Part shown: in pieces, positions 15,701 to 49,200 of the stretch | Position numbering within the stretch: position 1 is the stretch's first letter | Layout of the letters: each line of letters starts with the position of its first letter | NCBI GenBank assembly: GCA_036874045.1 | Contig: CM072345.1 | Coordinates: forward strand, 14,104,001-14,168,000 | Direction of reading: 5' to 3' | From: Cymodocea nodosa | Taxonomy: Eukaryota > Streptophyta > Magnoliopsida > Alismatales > Cymodoceaceae | DNA: 64,000 nt | The notes under the pieces: generated by a model | The model's input: the letters and a program-made list of their open reading frames with translations, nothing else | Told to the model about the DNA's origin: nothing | Databases searched by the model: none | Position numbers and translations under genes: made by a program

Positions 15701-18700
15701 GTCACTGTTCAGATAATTACCAGCGTGGTTAGGTTGTTATTGTTAATTTTAGAAAATTACATGTTAAGTTATTAGTAGAATAGTATATTTATAAATCAAT
15801 TTAGAAATATCTGTAGTATATAAAAATGGTTTTTTAAATATTTTTTTTACTGGTGGTGTCTAGGCATCATCAAGGTGCCCAAGGCATCTCTGCTCGTCAC
15901 CATCATGCTTTGATGCCATCATAAGTTCATAACTATGCTCCCTTTTGATAATCAACACTATTTTCATTGGCTTTCCGCTTTTATTCATAGTATAAGTTAT
16001 CACAATTATATTATCGTTGAAGATAATTTATAAATTGTATACTTTCATATAAAATATTGGTATTTATTTACAATTGTTAAACACTTAAACTTTAGATTAT
16101 TGATATGTACGAAATATGAGCTTAGTTGAAGTCTGTGACATCAATTCACTAGTTATATAATTTTTATATTTCATCCTCTTTATTCTGTAAAATACGTAAT
16201 ATTTTTCCCAGTTTCTCCTGTTTAACAATTTCAGATTCATTTGCATGATTTTCCTTCCTGAAGTATGATATGTAGTATTAATGTGCTTCAAAAGTTATCT
16301 CTTTCAGCTCACAATTACACTATCGTTGAAGATAATTTATAAATTGTATAATTTCATATAATATATTGGTATTTATTTACAATTGTTAAACACTTAAACT
16401 TTAGATTATTGATATGTACGAAATATGAGCTTAGTTGAAGTCTGTGAAATTAATTCACTAGTTATATAATTTTTATATTTCATCCTCTTTATCAGTAAAA
16501 TACGTAATATTTTTTCCAGCTTCTCCTGTTTAACAATTTCAGATTCATTTGCATGATTTTCCTTTCTGAAGTATGATATGTAGAATTAATGTGCTTCAGG
16601 AGTTCTCTCTTTCAGCTACTACTAGCAGCACTGTGGACATGTTTTCTTATTAGATAAGTTGAATGTTACCATTAACTCTAACAAAGATTTGTGTCTAATC
16701 TATATTGTGTGGTATAAAGGAACTGAATATCACAGGCATAAATAAGCATCAATTTCCTTGATAATAGGTACAGACAAAACAACCATTTTCAAAGGTGGAA
16801 CTTGGTTAGAACCTGCTGGGATACTTGGTGTTGTTGACGACATAGACACACTTTTTATTGTAAATTCAAATGGTGAGATGGTATCAAGGACAACATCAAG
16901 ACAGCTAAAGCTTCCTCTCCCTATTTCTGGCTTGTTTACAGTTGATGATTTTAATGCAGAGCATTCCATGTAAGGTCTATTTCATTAATATGACATGTAT
17001 TTTATGTATAACAACTTTTCATCTTGGTAACTTTGTACATTTTAGTGGCAGTGTGCCATTGAGAGTCTCTTTTGAAATCTCAGATTGTTTATGCAGGAAT
17101 GGTTTTTGCATTGTAGCAGCAGATGGTTCCCTTTATTGTGTTGAAGTCACTCAAGAATCAAGTGCATGCATTTGTTCCAGCTCAACCGTAAAATCAAGAC
17201 CAAAGGAAAGCTCTTATGAGAGTGTTTCATGCTTAGATTTTTGTCATGACATGTCCTTGTTAGTTATGGTTCACAGTTCTAGTCTAGCTACAGGAAGCTC
17301 TGTTCAAAATTCTGGTAAATAGTTTAATTTTGAACTTTTTTGCATTATGTCTAGCTTAAGGCTTAAATGTTTCTTCATCTTAAAGTGTTTTTGGACTGAG
17401 TTATTCATTAGTCTTATATCAGTAAGTTGAGAGAGAAATTCTTTTCCTGAATACTGCTTATGGTTTTTCTGGCAGGATTCTTCTCTATTTGTTTATGGCA
17501 TGTTGCAAAAAACTTAGAGCTAAATTTACTTTTTAGTAGTCCTAGGTTTGAAGGACTATACTCATCACCAAAGAGCCAAGTGGAAATCTTTACAAGTCCA
17601 AAAGTGCTGATCTCACCTGAAGGAAGGCATATTGCGACTCTTGACATGAAAGGGTGGTTGCGTATTTATTATCTCAAACAGAATCCTTATTCTATTTCAA
17701 TGTTTTCTTTTGACAAAAAAAATTGTGTCAAGTTTTCTGATGGTTCCGAACTGGTTGAAGGAAACTTCTTCACAAACATAGTTGATTTTGCTTGGTGGTC
17801 TGATCATTGTCTTATACTTTCAAGGAGTGGTCATGTTGTTATGCTCGATATAAATAATGGTTTAAAGGATATGGAAAATGATCTAGAATTCTCTGTGTCC
17901 TTGCTAGAAAGAGTGAATGGCCGTCAAGGATATGTTTTTGCTTTGGACTGCAGACCAACACAGGAAAACTCAGCTTTGAGTGAGCATAAGGGCACATCTG
18001 AAAATGTCCCTCATGAAAATTATGAAGAAGAACACATTGGTGAATCAAGCTGGAGCTTAATTTCTCTTTCAGCTAAATCTGTAACTGAAATGTATGCTAT
18101 CTTGATCCGGAAGCAACAATATCAAAATGCTTTACAATTTGCCAACCGTTTTCAGCTAAATAAAGATGAAATTTTTAAGGCACAGTGGTTATATAGTGAT
18201 CAAGGCGTTAATGAAGTAAATAAGTATTTGACAAACATTAGCGATCAGAATTTTGTACTTTCAGAATGCCTAAAAGTTGGATCAGCTGAAGATACAGTTA
18301 TAGGTTTGCTTTCTCTTGGTCTTCATATAACTGATCAGTACAAGTTTCTTAGTCTGGAAGATGAAACAGATAGTATAATATGGAGGTACCGAATGATTAG
18401 GCTTCAGTTGGTGCAATACAAGGATCTGTTGGAGACATTTCTGGGGATCAATATGGGCAGGTACAAGTCCTGGATACTAGATTGTTTTTGTAGCTCAGGA
18501 TACATTTTCAGACATTTATAATTGATCATTTGTTCTTGTTGAGTGGTGTTCCATTTAATCAACGCATCATGGTAAAAACTCTAAGGCTGTGTATCTATTG
18601 ACCTTGCCAGTTGTCTCCTTCATAGGAGCCTTGTGCGCTAAGTTACCTCCCCATCTCAAGAAAATATTTCGATACACAGTTTTCTTTCATACCTTCATCC

Positions 18701-21700
18701 AGTGTCGAGTTTCTCACTTAGATGTTTATAGCTTTGTCTATTGCAACATTCTTTAGCTTTGACTTCAACACAAGAAATTTTAGCGATGATAAGACTTAAG
18801 GGTCTATTTGGAAGCACTTCTCCCAAAAACAGATTTAGTCTCACGTTTTAAAAGCTAGCTTTTAGAGCTTGATGTTAGAATCTAGTTTTTAAGAAATAAG
18901 CTCTAAAAGCTTTTAGTTTTTTGGTGACACAAAGCCAAAACAGCTTTTACATTGATGTAGAAAGACAATGTTGTCCCTTTGAAAGTCAACAAGAGGAAAT
19001 GTGTTTCACTATTTATGTAGGCTGAATTTATTTGCATTATTTCTCAATGATAATATAGACGATATTTACACAAATAATTTCTGTAAGAAATATTCATTGT
19101 TTTGTGATGTAGTTAATGACTTGTATATGATTGTCAAGATTAATTTTTATCACAATTACCTAATAGGCTCTTTGATTTTTGGTAAGTATTGTCTTTTCAA
19201 AATTTGATGGCATTTGTTGTAATTATGTCTTGGTTTTATTGTAAATTGAATAAATGAACAAAGACAGAAAGGAGAAAAATTATGATTTGGGAGAAGTGGC
19301 CTTCACACATCTTCTCCCAGAATCCACAACACTATTGTTTTTCTGTGTCCTAAATTACAGCAGATTTTCCTAGAAGTTACATGTTTTGTACTGTTTAAGG
19401 CAGTTCCGGCACTAAGACTGCTTTTGGGAGAAGTTATGCCTCAAAATCTCTCCTGAATGGACCCTATGATTTAAACATTTATATACTTCAATATATCTGC
19501 AAGTCTAAACTAATAGATTAGTTTGAGACTCTCATACACTCTTCTATGTTTTCTGTTTCTCCTTTTTAATCACCCTGATGCTTTTATGACAGTAACACTT
19601 AAATATTTTGTGTACTACTTCTTAACTGCAAGCTTTTCAGATTTTCTGCACAGGAATACAGCAAATTCCGTACATTACCTATTAAGTCGTCTGCCATAGA
19701 TCTGGCAGAAAGTGGGAAAATTGGAGCTTTAGATCTTCTGTTTAGGCGTCATCCATATTCTCTATATGGTAATATTTTGGATATTTTATCTGCCATTCCT
19801 GAAACTGTTCCTGTTCAATCATTCGGGCAACTCCTTCCTGGGGCTTGCCCCCCTAATGTTGTTATTTTGAGAGATGAGGATTGGGTTGAATGTGAAAAGA
19901 TGGTGTCTTTCATGAATGAAACAACAATTGATTTTGAGAACAATTTTTCCACAAAGACAGAAATCATTTTGAAGTGCACCACGGGTTTGGTTTGGCCTTC
20001 AATGGCTGAACTGTCTGAGTGGTACAAAAATAGGGCTAGAGATATTGATAACTTGAGTGGCCAGCTAGACAATTCCCTCTCTTTGATTGACTTTGCCTGT
20101 CACAAGGGTGTGGTTGAGTTGAAACCATTTCACAAAGACATGTCATATTTGCATCAAATTGTTTATTGTAATGATGAAGAAACAAGTTTCTATGTGAGCC
20201 TGACCTCATGGGAAAATTTGTCAGCCTATGAGAAGTTCAAGACGATGCTTAAAGAGGTCAAGGAAGAAAAAATTGTGGCTAGGTTGCAGGAGAAAGCTAT
20301 CCCATTTATGCGTAATCATACTTACTCTATGAAGGATTTAAAACATGCTGTCAGTGGGAGCCAAGAAAATGAACATTCTGGAAGTGTGGAGTCCTTTCTG
20401 GTTTCATGGTTGAAGGAGACTGCTGCCAAGAATGAGATGGGTATATGCTTGATTGTGATAGAGGAAGGATGCAGGAATCTGCACACTGGAGAAACGTTCA
20501 GGGATGAATCTGAAGTGGTCCATACAGCCTTGGAGTGTTTATACTTGTGCACTTTGACAGATTGCTGGAATATGATGTCATCCATATTATCCAAGCTTCC
20601 AAGAAAAACTTCAAAAGAGATCTTAGCCATGCATGGAAATGTTTCAAGTCCAAGGCAAGGTGTTAGAGGTTTTGGATCTCCCATACCTTCTTATTGGGAA
20701 AACCAAAAAAGTAGTTCAGAGATGCCAACCGATTTACAGATCCGGGACAAGGAAGCTTTGCCACAACATTCTGTAGGAAATTTGAAGGGGGCAAAGGCTG
20801 GGTTGATTGAGAACCTAGAGAAGAGGATCAAAATTGCAGAAGGCCATGTTGAAGTGGGGCGACTTTTGGCATACTATCAGGTTTTAGCCTCTTCATCCCA
20901 ATCTTTGGCTCTTGTTCCCATCATATGGTATAGTTATTGTATCAGTCATCAGTTCTATCTTGTTTGTTAAATTTATACTGAATTTAATTTTACAATACTA
21001 CATTATTGAAGATCTAGCAAGACCGTTCTGAATGCTTTGCTTATTTTTTATAATATTAAGAACTATTGTTGTGGTATGCCATAGTTCTTAACGTTGTGTG
21101 TGACCCAGTAACTGTGGGGAAAGTCATTATTCAGAAATTTAGATCATTAACCGCTAATTTGCTATATTTAGGGTTTAGGACCTTCTCTAGTCAAGACAAA
21201 TCACATGTTCATAACCATCTAGCAACTCTGGCTATCAAAGAGTACAAATCTTTATGAATACTTTCTCTTTGCATGTGTTCTTACAGAGCTTTACTTTTAC
21301 TATATGATGTCTATGAGTGGACAGGGCCCATCTATCCAATGGCATATGTTTCCATCTTTCTGATTATGATTTTGACAAACCGTAGTTTATATCTCTCTTT
21401 TTCTAAATAGAAATCATTTTTATCTTGTTAAATTTGGTAGAGATTTCTTTTTGAACATTCATTAGCGGGGGTTTCTGGTATAGAAATTGATGTATCTTTT
21501 AGTATCTTGATCAATAAGGTGTGAGTCATATGCCACAAGTTAATGCCTTTAGTTTTCACTCTCCAGCAAATGTTTTGTAGATTTTGCCTGAAATTTTGGC
21601 CGACTAAAAATGCTTGGGATCATCTTATAGTTATATTGCACTTGACTTTTGTAAAAATTCCAGTCCATGCTGAAAGCATATTAAGCACCAAGGTTAATTG

Positions 21701-24700
21701 AATTTTAGATGCTTAGCTTTCTTGGTTTATGATAGACATAATCAAATAAACATTGGATGGTTGATAAAGGTTTATAAAATATTGAATACTCATGCTTAAT
21801 GTCAAGATTCAAAATTTAGGATGTTTGAAAAAGTGCCATCCCTTCTATAGCTGATTCTTAATTTCTGGATATCAGATAAGAAATGATTTTTTGGTTTGTA
21901 CTTACTTATCACAACAGCAATAGAAGGTTCTTTTGTAACCACTTTATAAGTAAATATAAAGCTAATATTCACTTGTTTGTGTGAGATTCTTAAGGTAGTT
22001 GAATCTACTATAAAATCATCACAATCCTTCCCTGCTTGCAAATTGAAGGTTTCATTCATTTCTAGGTCCCAAAACCAATGAGCTTTTTTCAAGGAGCTCA
22101 TTCTGACGAAAAGAATGTAAAACAACTTATACGCCTTGTTTTGTCAAAATTTAGTCGTCAGCCAGGAAGATCTGATAATGATTGGGCAAATATGTGGAGG
22201 GATTTGCAATGTTTTCAAGAGAGAGCCTTCCCTTTCCTTGATAAAGAATATGTACTTACAGAGTTCTGTAGGGGACTGCTAAAAGCTGGAAAATTATCTC
22301 TTGCAAGGAGCTATCTAAAGGGATCTGGTGATGTTTCTTTAACAACAGAAAAAGCAGAAAATCTTGTTATTCAAGCTGCAAAAGAGTACTTCTTCTCAGC
22401 TTCAAGTCTTTCTTGCTCTGAAGTGAGTACTTCTAATCACTCCCATATGACAATTGTTTTGATGCCTGTTCTACATGAAAAATCTAAGTTTTTACAACAT
22501 CTCTAGCTAGAGTGGCATATTTGCATAATTTTCAAATCGTGTCATTAGCTTTTGTTTTTGAACGTTTCATGTCTATCTATAATTGCATAGGTATTAATGA
22601 AGCATCATCACTTATAAAGTATTCGAATTTTGGAGCACATTGGGTGAGAATGGTAAGATAGCGTATCATAGAATGGACATTTATTCTAGTCATGCATCAT
22701 AAGATTAAGCTAACGGCTGTTGAGAATGTGGGAGATTCAGTGGTTCCTGTATTATTAAAAATTTATTGGCTTCTAATTGTTCCTTTCCTTAAAGTTCTGA
22801 TTTCTACAGTAACATTTTTGGAAATTGTGCAGATATGGAAGGCAAGGGAATGCTTAAATGTATTTCCAAATAGTGAAAGTGTCAAAGCGGAGTCTGATAT
22901 CATTGACGTTCTAACCAATAAACTTCCAACATATGGTGTGACTCTCCTTCCAGTGCAATACAAGCAAATAAGAAATCCCATGGAGATAATTAATACCGTG
23001 ATCACAAGCCGAACTGGGGCTTATGTTGATGTGGATGAGCTCATTGAAATTGCAAAAATGTTGGGACTGAGATCTTCAGATGATATAGCAGCCATCCAAG
23101 AAGCTGTAGCAAGAGAAGCTGCTGTTGCTGGTGATCTCCAGCTTGCTTTTGATCTTTGCCTTGCTTTGGCTAGAAAGGGTCATGGACCTATCTGGGATTT
23201 GGCTTCAGCACTTGCAAGGGGCCCTATCCTTGAAAACATGGACATTACTTCCCGAAGGCAGCTCCTAGGTTTCGCACTTAGCCATTGTGATAGTGAATCT
23301 ATTGGGGAATTATTGCATGCATGGAAAAACATCGATATGCAAATTCATACTGAAAAGTTAACGATGTTGACCACCACAGGTCCTCCAGATTTCTCTGTTC
23401 CAGATATTGGAGATGTACCACCTCATGCACAGAATCTTCAAGAAAATTGTATTGCAAGAGTATCAGTGGAAGGTGATGCAGACAAAGGCAAGAATGCTGA
23501 CATGGAAGTTCATCTTAAAAATAAAGGTAGCCTACTTTCTAAAGTTGTGATGAAGACACCCACTGATGATGGAACCATTTGGGATGATATATTGAGAGAA
23601 AATGGAAAACTTTCTTCGTTTGTTGTTTCTGAACTTCCTTGGTTACTAGAGTTGAATAGCAAAGCAGAATATGGTAAAAAAGCATCTTTTGGAAACAAAT
23701 CTCCAGGAAAATGGTTCATGTCTGTGAGATTGCAAGCAGGTTTGTGCATATTGTCCCAGTTGGCTTTGAACAATTTATCTCCTAGTGACGATTTGATTGC
23801 ATCTATTATCAACTCTGAAATGGAACCCCCTGCTACTAGTGAACATGACATTGTTGGATGCTCATTTCTACTAAATTTTATGGATGCTTTTCATGGTGTA
23901 AAAATTATTGAGGAACAACTCAAAAAAAGGGAAAGTTACCAAGAAGTTCATAGCATCATGAACCTTGGAATGATGTATAGCTCTGTGCAAAGCTCTGCAA
24001 GTGAGTGCTCAAGCCCTAGTGAAAGAAGGATGCTGTTACTTAACAGGTTTCAGCAGAAGGACAAGTCATTTATTGCAGGTGATTTATGGATCTTATATTC
24101 TTATATGCAATTTTCTTTCATGTTTCTTTTGCATATGAAAAATCGTTGAGGTACCTCTTCTGTAAAACTATGTTTATTTTCCAATATGTTGCCTGTTCAA
24201 CATGCCATTGCCCAAGTTCAGCAAGGTTCTGCATAACATCTTTTCATTAGGTTGGTTTCCTGAATTTTTTTTTTTCCTATGGTATGATTAGAATAACATA
24301 TTTCAGTATTCATGATTAGAATAAAGTAGTCATGATTATGTTTTTTGGCACATGATGATCTCACTCACAAGTCACAAGAGACCACAGAAACACTATCTAT
24401 ATGAAAGTAACTAAGATCACCTTGACCTTTTTATGTAAATTATTTCTGATTTACATCCTCGTCTCAATATCTCTCTTTATTTCTCAGATCAATCAACAAA
24501 AATTGATGAAATACAGTCTGCATTCTGGAGAGAATGGAAAATAAAGCTAGAAGAACAAAAAAGGCTTGCTGAGCATGCTAAAGAATTGGAAGGTGTGATT
24601 CCTGGAGTGGACACTTCACGTTTTTTATCAGGGGATATAAGCTACATTGAAGGAGCTATTCTCCAGTTTGTTGATTCAGTAAAGTTGGACAAAAAGCACG

Positions 24701-31762: not shown

Positions 31763-32511
31763 ACCTCTTTTAACTTTTTATTTTTTTCCTTTTCGTAAAC
31801 GGAATGTTGTCTTTTTTCTTTCCAAGATAATAATTTAAAAAGTACATTTTGAAATCACAACCAGAGTGAGTGAAGAAAAATCAAACAAAGTTGCAGAGAA
31901 TTTAAGAAAATACAAAAAACGTATGACAGGATTTAGCGAAGTCCATTCCTTCCGGAAGCTCTCGGTAAGACTTGTATTTTTAGTACCTTGCAGTGGTTCA
32001 TGACCGACGGTGTTTAACATCTTAAAAATGTAATTTTCTTATTGAATTTGGAAGGGAAAAAATTACAGTAGACAAAAAAGAAAAACTATGGATAACAGCT
32101 ATTGAAGGATCGTTGGTGCTGCGTGTCGCAGAGACGCGTCCTCTAGTATCCGTCCGTGGAGTTGAACGTAAACAAATCAGCATCTCCCTGTTGTGTCGGC
32201 AGATTACTGGCTCTGATTTGCTAACTAATTCACTTCCGCACACTTCTCTACCATTGTATCAGCATATTTTCCTTATTCAATGTCTAGAAACCCAAATTGG
32301 CTTTTCTATAAAGATGAACGTCACGGTGGTTGAGGCTTACATTGTTGCAATTTGATCTTTTGGCATGTCTGCCTCTGCATCCCTCTCTTTCAATGCCATG
32401 CCCTCTTCAGGTCTTTCATGGAGACCTGTTATTTAAAGCCAGGGGTAGTTTAGACGCGTACCAAAGGGTGATCATTGAGAGAGAGAGAGAGCAATGGGAA
32501 CAAGTGTAACT
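31763..32511. other. Convergent intergenic region (3' ends of F-box and MFS genes)
   Basis: The two genes end toward each other 750 bp apart. The stretch should hold both 3' UTRs. It contains a short GA run at about 32478-32491 and otherwise nothing recognisable. Confidence 0.5.
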
Positions 32512-35163
32512 CTACATACGTGTTTTATGATAATCAGTTACCATCATCAGCCGGCGTTGTAGGACAGAAGCCAGGAAGAGGAAAATAGAGCACATGCCAA
32601 ACATGACAGTGATTGGGAATGCATCCACCTACATGTCACCCAATAAATTTACGAACTGTAAACTGATACGAACACTAAACAAGAAATAAACGTTAAGGAA
32701 TAAGGATACCAAGGACATGAGAACACCTACACCATCTACTTGTCAGACACTTCAAATAAACTTCAGAGGACACTTACATTGTAAAGAACGATGCAAACAA
32801 AAATGTTGAGGGGTATGCGGAAGAAGTTCATGATTGTACTCCTTGCTTCCTCAGGGATGTACTGGGATCTCATCTTCATGATAGATGGCCAGAATATCCC
32901 AACACATGCCTCGAAGGTACAGAAGCCAATGAGTTGAATGCAACCTGCAAAAGAGATGCTTCCACCTTTTTTCCCAGTAGGTGCAACAAAGTACTGTTCA
33001 ATATATGAATTGTATTAGCTTAAATTCATGAAAGGTAATTGAGTGTCAGAATGAGTTGGAGAGGCTTACACTAGTGAGAACAGGAATGAATAGACTGGAT
33101 GCTGAGATCAAAAAGACAAGCTGCATGTAGCTTTCAACTTTAAGTGTCACACGTGCCAAGAGTCTCGATGCAGTTGAACTTCCCAACATTGATGAGAGCA
33201 TAAAGGTTGCAAATATGAAACCATGAGGAATCTCCTCATCATTTGGGCTCAAAGCAGGTGTCCATAGGAAAACAAAAGTATACATAGAACCTTCAAACAG
33301 TGACTGAATTGCACCCAACAAAGCAATCTTCTCATCTGGTTGAAACAGAAGTAGCGTTGTGAACATGGTTGTTTCTGCAGAAAAAAGAAGTTAGCTTGAC
33401 GCTGAAGAACATTTTACCAGAAGCAATGGCAACTGCAGCACCCTTGAATTGGGTAAGTAGATCCTTGCTATCAGAAGAATCTCCATAGTTTTCAGACCAA
33501 GTTGACAGGATTATTGCCATTCCAATGGCTAGGAAACATGCTGCTGCATCAAAGGGAGCAACAGGACCAAAACCCAAGTTGTCCGCCAAAATATTTGCAA
33601 ATAATCCTGACACGATAGCCACTAGACCATTGCCAAGGAATATAGCCATCGAGAATGTAATAGAAAGCCATTGTGGCTCAAAGCCCCTCTACATAACATG
33701 AAAAGTTCAAACATAAAGTTATCTTCACGATTTGATCAAAATGATTCATACTTGTGTCTTGACATTGGAAATAAGTGAAAAATCTCAAGGTGCATAGAGG
33801 AAGCACTTTTGAGGAAAAATATCAATCTTCATAAAAGATACAACTTAGAAGTAAGCTTGATAATTACTCTAATTTGTGAGTTTTGCAATAGTCTCAGATT
33901 AGAAAAAGTAAGGCCAAAATTTTCACACATATATAGGGAAAAATCATTGCATTCAAGTCAAAAGGCTTTGCGTTTGATGCTCATATTTCAATATGGTATC
34001 AATGCTCAAAATGGTCTACTAAGTCTAAATCTTTATATATGCATCCTTTCAAAAGTAACACATGTAAGACCAAAAAAATCACTGGTAAAGGAAAGTGTTG
34101 GAATGGTATACTAGAAGACGATAGTTGCATTTTTATAAGGACAGACTTCTCCACCCACATGATCAATTGATTTTAAATTAGATGTCTTCATTTCAAGAAC
34201 AAATCACATAGAAAATATAAAACTAAGATGTGGTGGCACCAGTTGTTGAAGAAGTATCTCCCCCTTTCCTCATTTAAGCAGATCACATAAAACATCCATT
34301 AAGCCGAGTTTATATTCAGAAGACAATGGTCCATTTTATGATTTTAAACAATGAGAAAAAAGGCTGGCCGATCATTACCTTATTGTGCTCTGCCACGAGC
34401 CATGATTCAAAGGCAGAGAAGAGGAGAGAGGTGGCAATTCCACCAAGAACACGTCCCACCATCAAAATCTTGTATTCGGGAGAGTGCTTCGTGATGCAGC
34501 TCAAGATGTACGTGATGCAATAAGTGACGCATGCTCTCTTCCTACCCCTGCAGTCACCAAAACAAATGGCAACAAGTTCGGATTCAAACCTCACAGATTC
34601 CGCAACACAGAACCATCAAGTTGAAACTCTTACTGTTTGTCCGCCAGTGAACCGACGATTGTCCCAAAGATCATAGAAGAACCAAATCCAGCAATGAAGA
34701 GCCTCCCAATCTCGCCCTTCTCGAAACCGTATTGGCTGTAGAGGTAGTAGACGTAGGGGCCCTGCAACCAATCACCGGCTGTGGCAGCCAAATTCAACAC
34801 ACAATTAAAATTCACCACAGACACCAAAAAAGATCACCATCCATAACCACCCTTCTACGAATCTAGTAGTTTGGAACATTTGTTTTCTCTTCAACTAAAC
34901 GAGAACTGATGGAGCTCCACAATACGCACAAGATCCAAAGCAACTCACTCCATCAACCCCGTCCACACAGCAAATCAGCGAAACGAACGGTGGGAAAGGA
35001 AACACGGCGTACCCATCATGAGGGAGTAGACGAGGAGGTAGTTGTTCTTAAACGAATTGAAGACGGACGTGGTGTTGATCTGGTCCACGCCGATCTTCCT
35101 CACCTCCATCTCTAACACCACCACCGACAGCCCTCCGAACAACAGGTAGTAGAACACCTCCAT
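32512..35163 (-). CDS. MFS anion transporter of the MOT2 / MFSD5 family
   Basis: Seven exons on the minus strand keep phase: 35163-35013, 34778-34634, 34547-34379, 33688-33418, 33335-33070, 32993-32778 and 32628-32512, giving 444 residues. The protein follows plant homologues such as At4g27720 almost block by block: FNSFKNNYLLVYSLMM, AGDWLQGPYVYYLYSQYGF, GRKRACVTYCITYILSCITK, GRVLGGIATSLLFSAFESWL, PVAPFDAAACFLAIGMAIIL, LFEGSMYTFVFLWTPALSPN and SQYIPEEARSTIMNFFRIPL. About twelve membrane helices are expected. Relatives include the algal molybdate transporter MOT2 and human MFSD5, so transport of molybdate or another anion is the family-based guess. Exon 1 is odd: after GGLSVVV it reads LEMEVRKIGVDQ, whereas the second first exon upstream reads AAMELSKTSADR, closer to the family. 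No TATA box precedes this exon 1. Confidence 0.92.
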
Positions 35164-35459
35164 TGCGATATTGGCACCGGCGACTCCACCACCAGCAAAG
35201 GAGCAGAAGGTCCCTTAACTTTGTTGTTGTTTAGGACTACGACCTTCGCTCTATTGTTGTTGTTTAGGCTGTTGTAGAGAATTTTTTTTTTCTTTTTATG
35301 ATGTCTTTGTTGGCATTTTTTTTAAGAGAAGAATTTACGTCGTGATCTGCACGTATTGGAAGAATGATCAAGAAACTTACATGCATCATTCATTTTAAAA
35401 GAAAAAAATGAGGGCTGGAAAATACTCGTCGCCACCGACGATCTCACTTGACCATGGGC

Positions 35460-35467
35460 TATAAAAC
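35460..35467 (+). promoter_or_regulatory. Possible TATA box
   Basis: TATAAAAC on the plus strand in GGGCTATAAAACCGAGGG, a good match to the plant TATA consensus. It lies directly before the GC3-rich open frame. No known gene starts just downstream, so function is uncertain. Confidence 0.35.
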
Positions 35468-35670
35468 CGAGGGAGCGGACGAACGAGAGGCATCTGGAAT
35501 ACCGTTATTGCGACGAGGGCTGTGAAGGATTGTTGAAGCTGCGACCAAGCAAGAAGGAAATCAGCGAAGAGCACGTGGAGAACCTCCTCGTGCTCGATAC
35601 TGAATCATTTGGCGACGTCTGTGACAAGGGGGGCGGCATGACACCGAAGGATGGTGGCTCGATCTTATGA
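35461..35670 (+). other. Unrecognised GC3-rich open frame behind a TATA box
   Basis: Seventy codons with no internal stop, ending in TGA at 35668-35670, containing LKLRPSKKEISEEHVENLLV and DTESFGDVCDKGGGMTPK. Third positions are mostly G or C (CTG, TAC, GAC, GAG, GTG, CTC, AAC), like the real GC-rich genes here and unlike the AT-rich surroundings. The first in-frame ATG is late (GGGM), so it is not a full gene as it stands. It may be an exon relic or a displaced exon fragment. I do not recognise the family. Confidence 0.3.
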
Positions 35671-36290
35671 GCAGCCAGTCCTCCAGTGAAATCTCGATGG
35701 TGCTTAAAGTTTTCATGTGGCCATGAAAATGGCCGACGGAAGCAGCCTCCCCAGGCGGAAGGGGGGCGAAGCAAAGGAATAATAATAATAATAGTGAGTG
35801 AGCATAAAAGGAAAGAAGGAAGGAGAAGGAAAAGAAAAAACGAAACAAAAAAATGTGTTCTTGCGATCCGCACCAGTGCGCAAATCAACGCATATGCCAA
35901 ACCGATCATATTGGAGGAAGAATGAAATGAAAAAAAAAAAGAAGGAAAGAAAGAAAGCGTAGAAAAGGAGAGACGTCGGTAAAAGAGGAAGGAGGAAGGA
36001 GGATCCCCCTTGCCACAAACGTAGATATATATATGTGCCAATCAATACATATATGCGGAAGGGGGAAAATGAAACCAAGAGAAAACGATGGGAACAGAAA
36101 GGGAAGGAAGTCAGCTGAGGGAAAAAGAAAAAGAAATAGAAAAGGGCGAATGAACGAAGGGAAGAAGTGACCGTATATGTCAATTGATGCATATATGTGA
36201 AGGAAATAATAATAATAATAATAATAATAAAGAACATGACGAAGAAGTCAATCGAAGGAGACTAGAGAGAGAGAGGGAAAAGTTAGTTCT

Positions 36291-36530
36291 CTATGTATTT
36301 TAGATATAAAATATAAATATTTAAAATAAAATCATAATCTTTTAAATATAAAATATAAATATTTAAAATAAAATTAAAATATTTTGAATATGAAAAATAA
36401 ATATTTAAAATGAAATTGAAATATTTTAGATACTCTAAAATATTAATATCTAAAGTAAAATCAGAATACTTTAGATAGGAAGGAAAAGAAATATTTAAAA
36501 TGAAATCAATATAATTTGAACAAAAAAATA
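36291..36530. repeat. AT-rich degenerate tandem repeat
   Basis: Several loosely conserved units built on AAATATTTAAAATAAAAT with flanking TTTTAGATA/TTTTAAATA blocks, spaced about 55-60 bp. Looks like a decayed minisatellite in the spacer between the MFS first exons. Confidence 0.7.
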
Positions 36531-36689
36531 TATATATAAATTCAAATATTCAAAAAAATCATAGATGCTAGATATAAAATCTGTAAATATTTCTTTTGAA
36601 CATGAACTTAAACTATTTGACATAAAAATATACGTATAATGTCAAGTATGCCTACACAATATCTCTGATACACGTGGCTAAATAATCGA

Positions 36690-36781
36690 AATGCCGCTAC
36701 CACAATACCGACGATTCACCCTTCCCGAAACCGTATCGGCTTCAGAGGTAGTAGACGTAGGGCCCTGCAACCAATCACCGG
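36690..36781 (-). pseudogene. Truncated copy of MFS exon 2
   Basis: The minus strand repeats the acceptor and start of MFS exon 2: GCAG followed by CCGGTGATTGGTTGCAGGGC, as at 34778 downward. The copy has lost one C in the following run, which shifts the frame, and similarity stops near 36690 where the real exon would continue for about 55 bp. It cannot serve as an exon in its own right. Confidence 0.85.
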
Positions 36782-36983
36782 CTGCGGCAGCCAAATCCAA
36801 CACAATTAAAATTCACCATCCGTTACCTCTGTTCTACGAAACCAGTGCTTCGGAACATTTGTTTTATCAAAGACTAAACGAGATCTGACGGAGCACCACA
36901 AAGTATGCACAAGATCCAAAGCAACGCGAGATCCAAGTAAGCAGCAACTCACTCGATCAACCCCGTCCACACAGCAAATCAGC

Positions 36984-37225
36984 AAAAAAAAAAAAAAAAA
37001 ACCAGGACATCAGGCAATGCAGAATTCGAGCAGAATCCACTAAGCAAAGCTCGAAACAACCCTAATATCGATCCAGACAACCAAATCCGGGCACCAATGC
37101 GCCGTCCCCACCTCAACACCACACAAACAAGGCAAATCTATCCCCGACAAACTTAGACTGAGATCTAGATAATGGATTCCACGGGCACGAGTAACAGAGA
37201 CCGTAGGGTAAGAACGAAAACCTGG
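36984..37225. repeat. Extra segment in the upstream MFS intron copy, led by an A-tract
   Basis: The two copies of intron 1 align closely on either side (CACACAGCAAATCAGC and CGGTGGGAAAGGAAA). Between them the upstream copy has about 225 bp more, starting with 18 A residues at 36984-37001. The downstream copy has only about 6 bp there. It is an insertion in one copy or a deletion in the other; the extra sequence resembles no element I know. Confidence 0.7.
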
Positions 37226-37263
37226 AAACCGAAACAATCGGTGGGAAAGGAAAGACGGCGTAC

Positions 37264-37414
37264 CCATCATGAGGGAGTAGACGACGAGGTAATTGTTCTT
37301 GAACGAATTGAAGACGGATGTGGTGTTGATCCGGTCCGCGCTGGTCTTGCTCAGCTCCATCGCTGCCACCACCACCGACAGCCCTCCGAAAAACAGGTAG
37401 TAGAACACCTCCAT
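37264..37414 (-). CDS. Second (alternative) first exon of the MFS gene
   Basis: A 151-bp segment, exactly the length of MFS exon 1 (35163-35013), with the same ATG, the same open frame and the same donor phase (ATG-ATG-G before GT). It encodes GGLSVVVAAMELSKTSADRI and FNSFKNNYLVVYSLMM with no damage. Compared with family members I remember (AALELSKTG-DRIN), it is closer to consensus than the exon 1 attached to the gene body. A TATA box lies 160 bp upstream. The exon 2 copy right after it is truncated, so a useful product requires splicing about 2.5 kb on to the intact exon 2 at 34778, which would join in frame. It could equally be a silent leftover of tandem duplication. Confidence 0.7.
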
Positions 37415-37573
37415 TGCGATAGCGGCACCGGCAGCTCCACCACCACCACCACCAGCAGAAAAGGAAGAAAAGGTCCCTACCTTTCCTGTCGTACGGGGCT
37501 ACGAGCTTCGCTCTTCCCTTCACCAACCTTTCTCTGTATGACGGCAGAAGGGAGAAGGCACCGAGATGGGTAG

Positions 37574-37581
37574 CTTTTATA
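37574..37581 (-). promoter_or_regulatory. TATA box upstream of the second MFS first exon
   Basis: TATAAAAG on the minus strand, 160 bp before the ATG at 37414. The 5' UTR homology between the two first-exon copies ends before this point, so the downstream copy has no counterpart. Confidence 0.55.
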
Positions 37582-39668
37582 GTTTTTTTTATAACGTCAT
37601 CTTTGTATTCATAAATAACAATAATTAAAATAATAGTTAATAGATTGACCGAAAGAACTGAACCGCCGTCGTCGATTCACATAAAAAAAAAAGGTTTGTT
37701 TTAGCAGGAAAGTTCAGAATTAAAAATTTTAAAAAAAAATTCTGACTTTTCTAGTGTTTATATTACACGAGAAATTTATTCTTAACTTTATAAAATACAA
37801 AAAGAAATTTATTTTTAACTTTTAGATCATTAGAACTCTAAAAATGGAGAAACACTAGAGATTCTTTTGTATATGTTAATATAATATATAATAAATATCA
37901 TTATATTATTTAAATATTATATGATATATATAAATATTTATTATTTATATAAAGTAATATAGTATATATCAATATTTATAAAGTAATGTATTATAATTAT
38001 CATTATTTATATAAGTTGTAATTATAAATATATATGCTATTATTTATTTATTATTATTACGATTATTATATTTCAATTTATCATAGTTATGTTGATATCT
38101 ATATATCATATTTATTATTTATATGATTATTATCATGTTATAATTAATTTAATTATTAATAATTCATGATTTATTATAAGGTCAATAATATATATTAAAG
38201 TTTAAATTATTCATTGAAACTTTAAATTACACAATTTTTGACTTTCTAATTTCAAATAAACAATTTTAAATTTCACTTTTTTAACCTTTTATTTTCTTTA
38301 TTTTTACTTTCTGATTTTTATTTTTTTTTTGAACTTTTTATTTCTTTAATTTTTGTACTTTCTGATGCGACATAAACAGATCTTAAGAAATCTTTTACAG
38401 GTTCACATTATTTTTATAAACCAAACAAATTGTCACATGATTTCTGCCTCTTCTTGTTGGAAAAAAAATGTAAATTACCATCATACCGAGGGTCGTATTG
38501 AAAAAATTGCATATAAATTTCTGGATAGATGTAAAAGCTTCGAAATAATATCTAAATGATAAAAGAAATAACAAGCATTCCAAATGGTGTGATCTAGAGT
38601 TAGCATCTAGTAATCCAAAAGAAATTTAAATAATATCCCGACGCGAATCCGATACATCTCATCCCTTTACTCTTTAGTATATGCGAATTAATTGACTCTG
38701 ATAATTCGATTAGTTAATCGTAATTGATACTCATATGATTTATGATAAAGAATCGACACTAGGGACGTACACAGACATGTGCACAGATTCGATCCGACGA
38801 TGGAGATTCCATGAAGTACCGGTGAAGGAGATGTTGATGTTTTCGGATCATTCCAACGGTTGGGTGGTCCGAATATTTAAAAGTCGATCCAATGGATCAA
38901 AAGAAAAAAAAAGAAGATAGCTCGACCTTAAAAAGAAATATGGGCCGACACTGCCCGATCATTAAAAATGGGCGCCCAACATGGTTCAAATGATCGGGCC
39001 GTACCGCTTAATGGTACGATCCAATCGTATCGGACCGTATCGATCTGATTCGACCCGAGTACCCGACCCAACACAAGTATAGATGAAACATGAAGACTTT
39101 CTCGAAGAAAATGTGTACAGACCACCGAACACTTTATGGATTAGTTTATTATCGTTGCCATCACTTAACGTAGATAAAACAGATTATTTCTGTTGGTTGA
39201 AATTTATCCTAGAAAAAATAGTTGACCAACGGTGTCAATATTTTTGTAATATTTCAAATAGTAAAATATTGGCTCTCAAAATCTAAAGCGTAATCTTCAA
39301 AAGGTACAACGATATACATTTCGCTGCGAAAATGTTTTCTTTTGTTGGAGAATCAGGGAAAATAGATTGAACTAGCTCCTAGCACTGTAGATTTTAGTGA
39401 AAAGTAGTAGCAAATTTATGATTCTCTTCTGAGATTGAGTGTTCGCTTGAAAGATTAAAAATAAAATTCACGAAATCATCGCAAAGTAATAAATCGGCAA
39501 AATTTCAAGAACGATAAAGCAAAGATTTCGAAAATATAAAGAATGCCGGGAAAACGCTGCAAATTTGCAGTCCCGCGAGAGAGAAGGGACGTTAAATTTA
39601 AAACATTACTAGCTCCACGTGTGATCACTTATTACACACCACCACTTGCCAGCGACAGTGCACGCAGA
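37582..39668. other. AT-rich intergenic region before the RABA3-type gene
   Basis: Very AT-rich from 37720 to 38360, with short palindromic ATATATAAT runs that suggest decayed mobile or satellite DNA. A GC-richer patch at 38940-39070 (GGGCCGTACCGCTTAATGGTAC and CGACCCGAGTACCCGACCC) recalls the ends of hAT-type elements but has no partner that I can find. The RABA3 promoter occupies the right end. No gene seen. Confidence 0.45.
39616..39621. promoter_or_regulatory. G-box (CACGTG) in the RABA3-type promoter
   Basis: Perfect CACGTG palindrome within CCACGTGTGATC, 48 bp upstream of the start codon. G-boxes bind bZIP and bHLH factors in light, ABA and stress responses. At this distance it could lie in the 5' UTR. 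Confidence 0.4.
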
Positions 39669-41032
39669 ATGGGGAGCCTCGGCTGCGATCTTGCCGGGCG
39701 ACCGCCAGTCTCGGCTCAGGCTCTCCCGGAAAAGGGCGTGGACTACGTCTTCAAGATCGTGGTGGTCGGGGACTCCGCGGTCGGGAAGACGCAGATGCTT
39801 GGGAGGTTCACGCGCGACGACTTCGCGTTCGACTCCAAGTCGACCATCGGAGTCGAGTTCCAGACGCGCACCGTCTCCATCAATGGAAAACTCGTCAAGG
39901 CTCAGATCTGGGACACCGCCGGCCAGGAGAGGTGAGTGTCCTGACCTGCACCGTTTTCCTTCGTCTTCCGTAATCTCTGTCGTCGCACATTAGAGAGAGA
40001 TAGAGGAATTTACCTCATATTTAAATCGGTTCTGTTGACGCGTGCCCTACATTTTGAGAATTTGGAGTCATGAACTGATCATATGATTCCCTAGCCGATT
40101 GGAACCGCTGGTTGTAATTCTACACGCCACACTATCATATCATGTTCTGCTCTTTCTAGGCGTATTTTGAGCTAGAATTAGTTGCAGAATCCATGGTATT
40201 TTCTTGTTCATCAATAGTATGCTCATCATGTGATGTTTCATTGTTACCTCAAAAGCTAAACTAGAGGTTTTGTTAACTAAACCATTGAAGTAATAAAATT
40301 CAGATGTATTACTTGTAGGAGTGAAATGTGCTACCAACTACTACTCCACAGAGGGAATTGAATCCTGTGATTTATAACAATGGCCCCATCGTTTGCCGTT
40401 CTGAATCCTGACCTAACATGCCATACCGAAGTGCCAAGGACGACCATGACCATTAGGAAGGAAATGTTTCACCCAAACTGTTGGTTTTTCTGTCACATAG
40501 TCGAAGTGCAGGAGGCTTCTCAGTTCTTCCTCATGTTGGTTTGACGTGTAGGTACAGAGCAGTCACCAGCGCATACTACAGGGGTGCCCTGGGAGCAATG
40601 CTGGTGTACGACATCACGAAGAGGGAATCCTTCGACCATGTAGCCAGATGGGTTGACGAGCTCCGCGCTCACACCGACAATTCCGTCGTGATCATGCTCG
40701 TTGGAAACAAGGCCGATCTCAAAGACCGGAGAGCTGTGTCGACGGAGGACGCCATCGAGTTTGCGGAGGAGCAAGGCTTATTCTTCTCAGAGACGTCTGC
40801 CTTGAGCGGCGAGAACATAGACTCTGGGTTCTTCACCTTGCTGGAAGAGATCCATGCAGCGGTCTCGAGAAAGAAACTCCTTGGCGGTGAGGACGAAGAA
40901 AAGAAATCTGGGAGCAACGATGGCGGCGGCGGTGTTCTGGTTCTGAAAGGGACAAGGTTGGCAGTTGCTCCCGAGGGGAAGGAGATGGAACTGAGTGCTT
41001 TCAGCAATGGCCACTCTTCTTGCTCTTGCTAA
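39669..41032 (+). CDS. RABA3: Rab GTPase of the RABA (Rab11) group, RABA3-like
   Basis: Two exons, 39669-39931 and 40552-41032, give 247 residues. All GTPase motifs are present: GDSAVGKT at 34-41, [11 protein letters not shown] (switch I region), WDTAGQE at 81-87 with the intron right after the following Arg, then [23 protein letters not shown] and ETSAL. The C terminus SCSC gives a CSC geranylgeranylation motif for membrane anchoring. RABA GTPases control trans-Golgi-network and recycling traffic to the plasma membrane and cell plate. An intron at the [12 protein letters not shown] border is typical for plant RABA genes. The motifs [41 protein letters not shown] and the CSC ending point to RABA3. 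The insert with a Gly-rich run before the tail ([20 protein letters not shown]) is somewhat long. The gene is GC-rich. Confidence 0.9.
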
Positions 41033-41387: not shown

Positions 41388-42503
41388 TTACTCGCTCCAG
41401 TAGCCGTCGTCTTCCTTGTCGTCGTTGCCATCAATCTTCCCATCGTCATTATCACCAAAAGATTTCTTGAAATTTACCACGTCTTGGACCGCCGCCCGCC
41501 GGAACATCCCCACATCTACAGCCCCCGAAACCATTTGATATCCTCTCCTCCTTATCTCCTCTGGTGGATCATGAGGCATGGCAAAACCACCCAAGTACAC
41601 CTTCTTCTTCTTCTTGTTTTTGTTCTCTTTCCCACCGAATTCCAACACTTTCCTCTCTCCTTCCATCAACACCTTCCTCACTTCCTTGTGCGCGGGCCTC
41701 CACAGGTAACCAAGGCTGGCGCTCAAGTCCAACGGCCCCATCTGCACGCAGTCCACCCCATCGACGCCCATGATCGCCTCGATGTTCGCCATGGATTCCC
41801 CGCTCTCGATCTGGACCATGATGAGGAGCTCGTCCTCGTAGTTCTGGAGATAGTCCTCGTCGATGCCGTACGCCGACGCCCGGACCAACGTGTGGGCGGA
41901 CCCGCGGATGCCTTTAGGTGGGAACTTGCAGAAGGAGACGGCGCCGGCAGCGTCGGCGGCGGTCTCAATCATTGGGAACATGATCCCCTGGGGACCGAGA
42001 TCGAGGGCTTTCTTCGCCCAGGCTGCGGTGGACTCCGGTAGACGGAGGACGGCAGCGGTGTTGGTGGCGGCGAGGGCGTGGAGACAGGGAAGCGCGTCGG
42101 AGATGCCGGTCGGGCCGTGCTCCATGTCGACGACGACGTAGTCGTAACCGGCGAGGCCGGCGATCTCGGCGAGGGTGGGGGAGGAGCTGAGCAGGAAGAG
42201 GCCGTAGAGGGTCTCTCCTGAGGAGAGGCGGGACTTAAGGGAAGTTGGTCTTGCGGTGGAAATGCTGGTGGTGGCGAAGGCGGAGGAGGGGATGAGGGTG
42301 TTGGTGCGTTTGGAGTGGAGTGGAAGCGAGGGCATGGAGATGATGGGGCTCTTGCGTGGTTTGGGGATCGGACATGTGACTGGGGTCGTGGGTCTTGCTA
42401 GGACTTGGGAAAGGTGGGTGGTGACGGAGGCAGTGGTGGTGCGGTTGCAACCGACGACGACGGGGGAGGAGAACATTGTCGAGAACACGGCGGAGGAGAA
42501 CAT
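41388..42503 (-). CDS. HpcH/HpaI-type class II aldolase, organelle-targeted (At4g10750-like)
   Basis: A single-exon gene. The core reads SLKSRLSSGETLYGLFLLSS, GYDYVVVDMEHGPTGISDAL, LDLGPQGIMFPMIETAADA, FPPKGIRGSAHTLVRAS, IMVQIESGESM and VDCVQMGPLDLSASLGYLW. These hold the metal and catalytic residues of the family (His of EHGP, Glu of QIESG, Asp of GPLDLS). Members cleave or form 2-keto-3-deoxy acids; the plant substrate is not established. Chosen start at 42503 gives 371 residues with a Ser/Thr-rich leader of about 85 residues that suits plastid or mitochondrial import. The open frame also runs up to an ATG at 42638, which would add 45 residues less like a transit peptide. The C-terminal tail is acidic (DNDDGKIDGNDDKEDDG). 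The start is 766 bp from that of MTA, head to head. Confidence 0.9.
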   Translation of the reverse strand: MFSSAVFSTMFSSPVVVGCNRTTTASVTTHLSQVLARPTTPVTCPIPKPRKSPIISMPSLPLHSKRTNTLIPSSAFATTSISTARPTSLKSRLSSGETLYGLFLLSSSPTLAEIAGLAGYDYVVVDMEHGPTGISDALPCLHALAATNTAAVLRLPESTAAWAKKALDLGPQGIMFPMIETAADAAGAVSFCKFPPKGIRGSAHTLVRASAYGIDEDYLQNYEDELLIMVQIESGESMANIEAIMGVDGVDCVQMGPLDLSASLGYLWRPAHKEVRKVLMEGERKVLEFGGKENKNKKKKKVYLGGFAMPHDPPEEIRRRGYQMVSGAVDVGMFRRAAVQDVVNFKKSFGDNDDGKIDGNDDKEDDGYWSE

Positions 42504-43269
42504 TTGTTGAGAACACGGCGGAGGAATTGTCGAGGTGTCAGCGTTGTCCACGAGGTGGACTTGAGGAATGAAGCGTGTAAGGGCAGGATTCAGCCATTCA
42601 GGACAGTGCGATTCCCTTTTTTTAAGTAGTGTGAACAAATTCTGGACTTTCGGGACGATGCGAGCTTCTTTTTCCAGTACATTTTTCTATTCGTGCCTAG
42701 GGTTAGGGCACGCGCCGCGACCTTCCTTCTTCTCTCGTCATCGCCTCCGCCGCTTGGTCGGCCATCTGTGGGAAGATGATCCAGCGGTGAAGATCGAGCC
42801 TCGGACATCGTCGATCTGTTTTCCTTAACGCTTAAGTAAAACGATTACATGAAAGAGATAGAACTAACTGGTCTTGAAGGAGGTAAAACAAATCACATTT
42901 ACTATAATATTTATATTCGATAATGATATGCGCAGAATAGTTGACGATTGACGACTTTTAGTCAACTTGTAAAGCCAATGTGAGAAACATGGAAAACCTA
43001 CCTGGTGGTCGTACGATACAAACGACTATTCACATCGACGGGCAACCATCGAAATATTTCTTACGAGAAAACAATAACGATAGAATATTTTAAGTTTTTC
43101 TTATCATAAACTTCAAATTTTGGTTATAATACATTAATCAATTAATTACGTATGAACTTAAACGATAGAGTTAAGTTGTTCTCTCCATATCCGTACCAAC
43201 TCAAAACCCCCCCGGTTCGACTTCGACAGCCTTTTTGCCCGCCACCGCCGTCTTCTCGTCGCCCGCCTC
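42504..43269. promoter_or_regulatory. Divergent promoter region between the aldolase and MTA genes
   Basis: 766 bp between two oppositely oriented start codons, so the two 5' ends may share a control region. No clear TATA box on either side. The aldolase-proximal part is GC-richer and continues the open frame of that gene to 42638. Confidence 0.45.
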
Positions 43270-46200: not shown

Positions 46201-49200
46201 GCATTGACACATGTCAATGACATCACCACAATCTGTTGATCATACAATTATTGTGATTTTGAGTATTATATTTCCATTTATTTGCTATGCATCCATGCCA
46301 TAAAATATACAAACAAGAACATATAAACTTTACATAGCTTAATGATTTTGATAAGTTGGCAATCATCTTCATGGCGTCATGCCCAAGTAACTCACTTAAA
46401 ATGGTTGCCCTTACCCTTGATTGTTTCCTTAGTAGTGTTGTTGCTACTTGCTAGGACAACCACATAAATAGATACAATTTCATCGTGATGCAATATGGAA
46501 GATACATTACAAGGAGCTACATTATTAATGCCATGAATTTATGATATTTTATGAAAAATGAGTAACCTTCACCAAACTACCTAAGGCTCCCAACTAGTTT
46601 GTGATAAATCATTTCTAAATGAAATTATGAGAAGACTTGGATGGTTAAATTCATGGTTTATCTACTAGTGAAAAACCCATTTATTGGAAGGGACCTAAAT
46701 GGTCATGTAAGGGAGAAAAACGACGCATATGGAAGAAACCATGTTAGATTTGCTTTTGGTAAAAATGAAGACAGAAATTTAATTTTAGACTTTAATGTAG
46801 CTTATGACCTTTTAGGAAAAAAAGGAGCATTTAATTACATTTAGAAGTGGTTCAAATGCTAGTTAAATAGATTTTTACTTACTAGAAAATAGATCAAAGA
46901 ATGTGTAAAAATTGTAAGGTTATTTTGGAAGAAAGCTAAGTATATAACATAGGTTGTTAGTATTAGATGCTAATATCAAGATTAGGAAGAGAAAGATTAA
47001 AGTACATAAAAACCTAAGAATTAGGTGGTGGAATCGAAAAGGTAAAAAGAAAATGATATTTGAAGATAACCTGTTAAAAAAAGTTTATGAGAGCTAGATA
47101 GAGAGGTAAATAAATTTTGAAATGAAATGACTACTTGTATTAAAAAGATTATTAGGGAATTTTTAGGAGAGTCTTGTGTGCTAGTTCCACTAGGTAGAGA
47201 AAGTTGATAATGGAATGAAAATGTTTAAAAGATAATAAAAGAAAAGAAAGAATGCCATAAAACCTATCATAAATGTAAAAATCAGGAAAATCTTTACATC
47301 TTAAGATAACTTGATAAACTATTGTTGTTGTTTACTTAATCATTCCTTCCTTGTAGTTGCAGTTATTGCCCTTTTATGGATACATACAAATTATATAAGA
47401 TGATTTTCTCTTATTTTATCTTTAATTGGTACAACTCCTATTTTATTTTGCATGAATGATTATCTTTTATGATATCATCACTCATCTATTTTAATACTCA
47501 CATCTTTATTACACTAATGTTCGGCATGTGCTTATATTTTTCTAGAAGTTTTCTTTTAATTTTAAGGATATTCTTTTATCAAATAACTCTATAGATGCAT
47601 CACTAATACCATACTTTAAAATTTTATTCAGGTTCACTTTCGTCGTATAATTGCTCCTCATACAGACATGAGTCTTGGTGACTGTTCATTTCTAGATACT
47701 TGCCGTCACATGAAGGTACTTCTCACTTTATATAGATTCACTATTTTTAATAGAACAATGTGATGCTATTAATGAAATTCTTCTCATACATTGTTGCTAA
47801 GGCTGTGTTTGTAATGCTTTATTATGTTTTCTTGATCTATTTGTTTCTGGATGTTTCTTATTATCAATTAATAATAATCACTCTATCAACTTTTCAAAGA
47901 AAAATGATGTAATGCTGGTTTACATATTTTTGATGGACATGCAAATATGTTCTTTTGAAATTGATCCTACCCCAGAAATGTCAACGTTTCAAAGAAAAAT
48001 GACGTACTGTTGGTTTGCATCTTTTTGACAGACATGCAAGTATGTTCATTATGAACTTGATCCTACCCCAGATATGCCTCCTATGATGATGGGGGCAGGG
48101 AATGGTCCTCCAAAGCCAATGAAGACTCAAAGGGCTGAATATTGTTCAGAAGTGGAACTTGGTGAACCACAGTGGATCAATTGTGACATCCGTACTTTTA
48201 GAATGGACATTTTGGGGCAGTTTGGGGTTATTATGGCAGATCCACCTTGGGATATTCATATGGAGTTACCTTACGGAACCATGGGTGATGATGAAATGCG
48301 GAATCTCAATGTCCCTGCCTTGCAGACTGATGGATTAATTTTTCTTTGGGTAACTGGACGAGCTATGGAACTTGGGCGTGATTGGTATGTGTTTCCTTCT
48401 GCTATGGTTTATGACTTCATTTTTTTAAACATGAATTGCTGGACTATTTTATATGGAAGACCTCAAGAAATCGGGGAGGATATTATTGCTTTGTTGATCA
48501 GATTATAGTGCCTTATCTTGTGTACCATTCATTATCATTACTCTTTATATTTGTGACATTGTTTATTCCTTTGGTTTCCTACATTTCATTATCTCTTCAA
48601 ACATTAGTGTCCTCTAATCACAAGTGATTATGATAATCTTGGTTATGCCAATTTTCTTTTTTAGGAGCCTTTTCTTTGGCATGACACATTCTATATTGGC
48701 TTGTCTTTATCATCAGAGCTCATTTCATGGTTGGCTAGCACATTGATTACTTGCCTATTCAATATGCCTTACATGCCATCTAACTCATATTCCATGTCAT
48801 CATCTTCTTTGTTGTGGACTTGAGTACTTTTAAACTATGAGAGTGTCATGTGTTAAGTAAATTTCTTTTCTCCAATGAAGTTGTAAACATTCACTAATGG
48901 GCCTTCTTGAATGGTATTATCTCTAATGGTGCTGAAGTGGTTTCCGTTGATTCCAGTTTAGAGCTTTGGGGATATAAGCGTGTTGAAGAGATAATATGGG
49001 TGAAAACCAATCAACTGCAACGCATTATAAGAACTGGTCGCACTGGCCATTGGCTTAATCATAGCAAAGAACATTGTCTTGTCGGAATAAAGGGAAACCC
49101 TGAGGTAAATCGGAACATTGATACAGATGTTATTGTTGCTGAAGTTCGAGAGACAAGTCGTAAACCTGATGAGGTAAACTTGATGTCCATTCTAAATTGT

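Follow-up and report, generated by a model that had tools for sequence, protein, structure and literature searches.

A duplicated first exon upstream of a single gene body in a putative MOT2-type transporter gene of Cymodocea nodosa

The stretch of Cymodocea nodosa DNA analysed here (the window; 64,000 nucleotides, C17:14104001-14168000) carries on its minus strand an intact transporter gene of eight exons encoding 471 amino acids (MFS_5), the 5' end of which appears to be a polarised case of a duplicated first exon with a single gene body. Two copies of exon 1, an upstream copy (E1up, 37264..37414) and a proximal copy (E1prox, 35013..35163), precede one shared set of exons 2-8. Core promoter and intron 1 sequence in common with an intact paralog on C13 is found at the upstream copy, and the two exons have evolved unequally. 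In our judgement the upstream exon and its TATA promoter probably remain the main start of the gene, with a 2485-base-pair (bp) first intron that would hold the proximal copy.

Anatomy of the duplicated 5' end

Both copies of exon 1 are 151 bp long, begin with ATG, are open throughout and end in the same phase (phase 1) at an identical donor, TGG|GTACGC. They differ at 14 of 151 sites, and their peptides at 10 of 50 residues. Similarity extends beyond the exons in two blocks, one pairing 34712-34983 with 36716-36987 (E = 6e-50) and the other 34979-35252 with 37230-37514 (E = 2e-74), and the homology of the two 5'-end copies is far beyond chance; 12% of intron sites and 19% of leader sites have diverged between them. 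The proximal exon has a duplicated leader (35164..35252, minus strand), whose similarity to the upstream copy stops at -89, and an intron 1 shortened to 234 bp (34779..35012). A 242-bp piece of ancestral intron 1 (36988..37229, by local alignment score) is present in both the upstream copy and C13 and has been lost from the proximal copy. Next to the upstream intron lies a fragment of exon 2 (E2frag, 36720..36781), a possible 62-nucleotide cassette exon that keeps its acceptor; the upstream exon 2 copy carries a frameshifting 1-bp deletion, and its similarity stops at 36716. Homology past this fragment, beyond 36715, was considered and rejected, the score being reached by 121 of 500 shuffles. 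An earlier note on this DNA had described two exon 1 copies with intact frame and donor and equal phase, a truncated and frameshifted exon 2 copy following the upstream one, and an intact exon 2 acceptor at 34778, and all of this agrees with our data.

The shared gene body (32337..34778, minus strand) comprises exons 2-8 at 34634-34778, 34379-34547, 33418-33688, 33070-33335, 32778-32993, 32520-32628 and 32337-32425, and encodes a 471-amino-acid MFS_5 protein when joined to either exon 1. Against the PF05631 profile (cut-off 25 bits) the upstream exon with the body scores 632.2 bits and the proximal exon with the body 625.4 bits, both full proteins covering profile positions 1-356 of 356. A search of the 374.6-Mb genome with this profile gave 12 matches: to the exons described here, to exons at C13:17777892-17779941 and, as a single marginal hit carrying three stops, to C6. 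The gene body occurs once on C17 and once on C13. The C13 paralog is likewise intact, with eight exons of which the first seven equal those on C17 in length. The gene is thus an intact PF05631 transporter (putatively MOT2-type, molybdate-transporter-like), and C13 holds its one intact paralog; we take the family here to be that of the Arabidopsis MOT2 (GoSAMT) transporters, plant MOT2 proteins presumably belonging to PF05631. The last exon (window 32337-32425) is 89 bp long as compared with 62 bp in the paralog, giving a longer and different C-terminus.

The 1.46-kb filler between the copies (35253..36715) was compared with the whole window and with L009, AT-rich and low-complexity matches being set aside. 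Tandem duplication of the full gene with later deletion of the upstream body was rejected, as the filler has no match to the 3' flank or to other introns at E below 0.5, a comparison that an old deletion could escape. No AATAAA is present on the gene strand within 35164-37263. The part of the filler at 35253-36290 is near-unique in the genome, with one 90-bp match, on C3, and 36296-36547 is occupied by a 42-bp tandem array, AT-rich, whose relatives occur on at least 15 of 28 contigs among the matches listed. On the other side of the duplicated region, past the core promoter, a dispersed repeat at window 37686-37900 starts approximately 270 bp upstream of the upstream ATG and accounts for 38 of the 43 matches in one genome search.

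Polarity and unequal evolution of the copies

The C13 paralog served as outgroup, with significance taken from 500 shuffles. The exon 1 and intron 1 sequences of the window match a single place at E 1e-6 within the 89 kb of C13 that was covered. The leader and core promoter of E1up (37415..37600, minus strand) contain a TATA box, TATAAAAG, at -167 (37575-37581) and another at -179 (37593), and match the C13 core promoter, with similarity continuing through the TATA box itself (ACTATAAAAGC vs ACCATAAAAGC). The score of this match was reached by 8 of 500 shuffles in free local alignment and by 0 of 500 in anchored alignment, as compared with 88 and 389 of 500 for proximal sequence beyond -89; because the anchor was taken from the earlier exon 1 alignment, the free local test is the fairer of the two. 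The 545-bp intron 1 of the paralog matches the upstream piece 36988-37229 with a score of 58 (shuffles 14.6, standard deviation 2.1; reached by 0 of 500), and the proximal copy is without this piece.

The match of both promoter and intron piece to C13 identifies the upstream copy as the ancestral 5' end, and the point where the proximal copy meets the body as the ancestral junction, a pattern attributable to simple tandem duplication of leader, exon 1, intron 1 and part of exon 2, with the core promoter outside the unit. We suggest that the 5' end was partly duplicated in this way after the gene parted from its C13 paralog, the unit starting inside the leader at -89, spanning exon 1 and intron 1 and ending within exon 2. 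The ancestral core promoter and the long form of the intron stayed with the upstream copy, and the body with the downstream one. Transcription most likely still begins at the upstream TATA promoter, and E1up (last base 37264) is most likely spliced over the 2485-bp intron to exon 2 at 34778, a direct join that gives the intact 471-amino-acid frame. E1prox, lying inside this predicted first intron, is most likely unused or in minor use, and would be mostly a relaxed relic in which a strong internal donor that shifts the frame has arisen.

The substitutions in the two exons are unequally distributed. When sites are polarised by C13, nine have changed only in E1prox, two only in E1up and three are ambiguous, with nonsynonymous changes making up eight of the nine proximal-only changes (in codons 17-28) and one of the two upstream-only changes. 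A three-sequence codon model of exon 1 gave omega values of 0.294 for C13, 0.276 for E1up and 2.38 for E1prox, and a likelihood-ratio test for a separate proximal omega gave p = 0.0496. The PF05631 score of exon 1 alone is 49.0 bits for the upstream copy, 48.1 for C13 and 42.1 for the proximal copy (46.7, 46.3 and 39.6 in the genome search). Likelihoods were also compared at fixed neutral rates, estimated from 215 intron sites (26 differences) or from 303 sites including the leader (43 differences), with kappa held at its body value and the C13 branch length drawn from a five-point grid. A constrained upstream exon with a neutral proximal exon was the best model in 6 of 6 settings, leading a constrained proximal exon with a neutral upstream exon by 4.0-12.0 log-likelihood units (lnL) and constraint on both by 1.7-13.1 lnL. 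The body has an omega of 0.110 against C13, and if neutral since the duplication it would have stayed stop-free in 91 of 2000 simulations (substitutions alone). An intact and constrained body that would rarely be stop-free if unused implies that at least one exon 1 works productively.

E1prox also contains a strong internal donor, GAG|GTGAGG, after exon nucleotide 60 (35098..35106, minus strand), which was created by the cluster of changes in E1prox and is missing from E1up and C13. Donor sites were judged by a donor consensus and by pairing energy with the 5' end of U1, the latter a rough proxy for splice strength. The internal donor has a duplex energy of -10.2, stronger than any of the 14 true donors in the two genes, which span -2.1 to -6.7 and include the normal donor of E1prox (-5.3), and the best internal sites elsewhere reach -5.3 in E1up and -4.4 in C13. 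When twelve random changes were made to E1up in simulation, -10.2 was reached in 4 of 3000 cases. Use of this donor is predicted to cause a frameshift and an early stop.

These results modify the earlier note in several respects. Its placement of E1up nearer the family consensus, made from Arabidopsis homologues, is borne out by the profile scores. Its proposal that the upstream copy is the original and the proximal copy is drifting fits the C13 polarity of promoter, intron and substitutions, except that the core promoter was apparently not duplicated. The duplicated promoter that it proposed was looked for and rejected: the proximal match ends at -89, and the similarity of proximal sequence beyond that point to the upstream promoter falls within shuffles (score reached by 57 and 39 of 500, and by 79 and 91 of 500). 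A TATA box had been claimed for the upstream copy only, and this is correct as to the boxes at -167 and -179; no TATA homologous to the upstream one could be shown in the proximal copy, which nevertheless has a TATA-like CATAAAAA at -137, near in position to CATAAAAG, which lies at -140 in the C13 paralog. As to each exon having its own promoter, the upstream exon has a C13-like TATA promoter and the proximal exon only CATAAAAA, with no homologous promoter shown. The note had also asked whether a related genome would reveal the upstream copy as the newer; comparison with one paralog from the same genome, that on C13, gave the opposite result.

Alternative readings of exon use

A number of observations weigh against the upstream exon being the main start. 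The TATA-like element of the proximal copy, with its position close to that in C13, is one of these. The relative-rate test on 2 versus 9 sites gave p = 0.065, omega = 1 was not rejected for the proximal exon (p = 0.42) or for the upstream exon (p = 0.78, an uninformative test in which the other two shared one value), and at fixed rates a model with both exons neutral trails the best by just 1.5-3.2 lnL. E1prox is still open and has its normal donor, although of exons given 11 random changes in simulation 57% stay open as well. Only the exact strength of the internal donor is rare, energies of -7.0 or below, stronger than those of the 14 true donors, being reached in 374 of 3000 simulations of the same type. 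The exon 2 fragment combines its retained acceptor with a good donor (AGG|GTGAAT, -6.3), and upstream transcripts may include it as a 62-nucleotide frameshifting poison exon. In addition, nine of the ten proximal events lie within codons 17-28 (codon 26 being assigned to the proximal branch). This cluster was picked after the fact; in a scan over any window, with the codon 17 doublet counted once, such clustering arose in 32 of 5000 cases, and outside these codons there are 1-2 proximal changes as compared with 8.9 expected if neutral (P 0.001-0.006). Uniform neutral decay is therefore a poor description of E1prox, and either some of the exon remains under constraint or it was hit by a local patch of mutation. 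Gene conversion as the source of its conserved parts is not favoured, because the adjoining intron and leader bases have not been homogenised.

The clustering in codons 17-28 is the best argument for two used N-termini, and thus for both exons being true alternative first exons, as in PEP1 of Arabis alpina (PMC3527215), with a proximal promoter newly recruited in the filler and two transporters differing mainly at residues 17-28. We regard this as possible but not likely. The intact frames and donors of both exons, the CATAAAAA at -137 and the PEP1 precedent of two starts with a shared exon 2 are consistent with it, and an N-terminal segment can matter, given that the Arabidopsis splice variant MOT2.2B, which is without the first 41 amino acids, showed no interaction with Cnx1 (PMC10397214). 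It accords less well with the fixed-rate likelihood, which is worse by 1.7-13.1 lnL, with a frameshifting internal donor that outdoes the normal donor of the same exon, and with a proximal promoter region that matches neither C13 nor the upstream promoter beyond shuffles. The particular form in which both exons are used and E1prox has been reshaped at residues 17-28 (LEMEVRKIGVDQ for AAMELSKTSADR), with the remainder conserved, is rather unlikely. If both exons were used, the gene would have a second transporter N-terminus, which may alter coupling to molybdenum-cofactor assembly, and selection between the exons, and between the normal and the internal donor, would switch the gene from yielding full-length protein to yielding a frameshifted transcript that is unproductive, or back.

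A gene model taking the nearest exon 1 would lead to a further reading, in which E1prox alone works as first exon, from a new promoter of its own, and the upstream copy is a partial duplicate that no longer functions. Such a gene would be contiguous and intact over eight exons, with a short intron 1 and the TATA-like CATAAAAA at -137, and the exon 2 fragment, if included, would poison upstream transcripts. We nevertheless consider it unlikely, as its model lies 4.0-12.0 lnL below the preferred one, E1up has changed less and scores higher against the family profile, and a C13-like core promoter is present only upstream. An assembly artefact, or two haplotypes laid in tandem in the single assembly examined, is very improbable, since the copies have diverged by 12% (intron) and 19% (leader), a 242-bp deletion distinguishes them and 1.46 kb of filler separates them, which in our judgement is too much for alleles, and the gene body is present once here and once on C13.

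With the upstream exon as the preferred start, the case illustrates how an alternative first exon can arise and probably also fade, and it is a warning that gene models choosing the nearest exon 1 may assign the wrong N-terminus and promoter.

Known parallels and genomic setting

This layout is already known in other genes, and the present gene would appear to be a further instance. The closest precedent is probably PEP1, in which exon 1 was tandem-duplicated with parts of the promoter and intron 1 to give exons 1a and 1b, in a segment of approximately 2 kb whose copies are 6.3 kb apart and whose upstream sequences are highly diverged; both starts were demonstrated by 5' rapid amplification of cDNA ends (5' RACE), with identical Paj proteins predicted (PMC3527215). 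In common with the account of PEP1 there, the present gene has a partial tandem duplication of exon 1, both copies being phase-compatible with intact donors and sharing one exon 2 and body. In contrast, exon use here is a prediction, the exon 1 peptides are not identical, part of exon 2 is also duplicated, and one exon looks relaxed. In PGM1, two homologous first exons likewise accompany one gene body, but that exon duplication has been put at more than 420 million years and both main isoforms are described as old (PMC7101342), while here the duplication postdates the C13/C17 split and one copy may be in decay. The Arabidopsis pair MOT2.2A and MOT2.2B resembles the present gene as a MOT2 transporter with an N-terminal variant from one gene, here a predicted one; the account of that splice variant describes no duplicated exon (PMC10397214). 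In a survey of plant alternative first exons the words 'duplication', 'duplicated' and 'tandem' are absent from the main text (PMC2174465), and among the matches listed for open-licence literature on duplicated first exons and on the MOT2 first exon or its alternative splicing the present case was not found.

The C13 locus was treated as a paralogous segment. A neighbour common to both loci, in the same order but inverted, is an AAA ATPase (window 5376-6664, matching C13 17785281-17783975). Support from the other flank is weak: the in-order match of window 46615-47291 to C13 17769689-17770147 is exceeded by an out-of-order match to C13 17808613-17809316, this sequence thus being present twice on C13, and window 9955-10674 also matches C13 out of order. 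No RNA family reached its gathering score in the window, and no solved structure matched at E 0.001. Nine reading frames were scanned with Pfam, two of which gave no match. Among the neighbours the scan identified an AAA ATPase of the At3g28540 kind (window 5084-6664), pieces matching KNTC1 ARM and Sec39 domains (17460-24149), a Ras family member (40481-41032), an HpcH/HpaI aldolase (41388-42638), an ATP synthase delta (OSCP) subunit (54081-54851) and Exo70 (60314-62272). A two-copy tandem repeat with a 95-bp unit and 86% matches is located at window 47886-48076.

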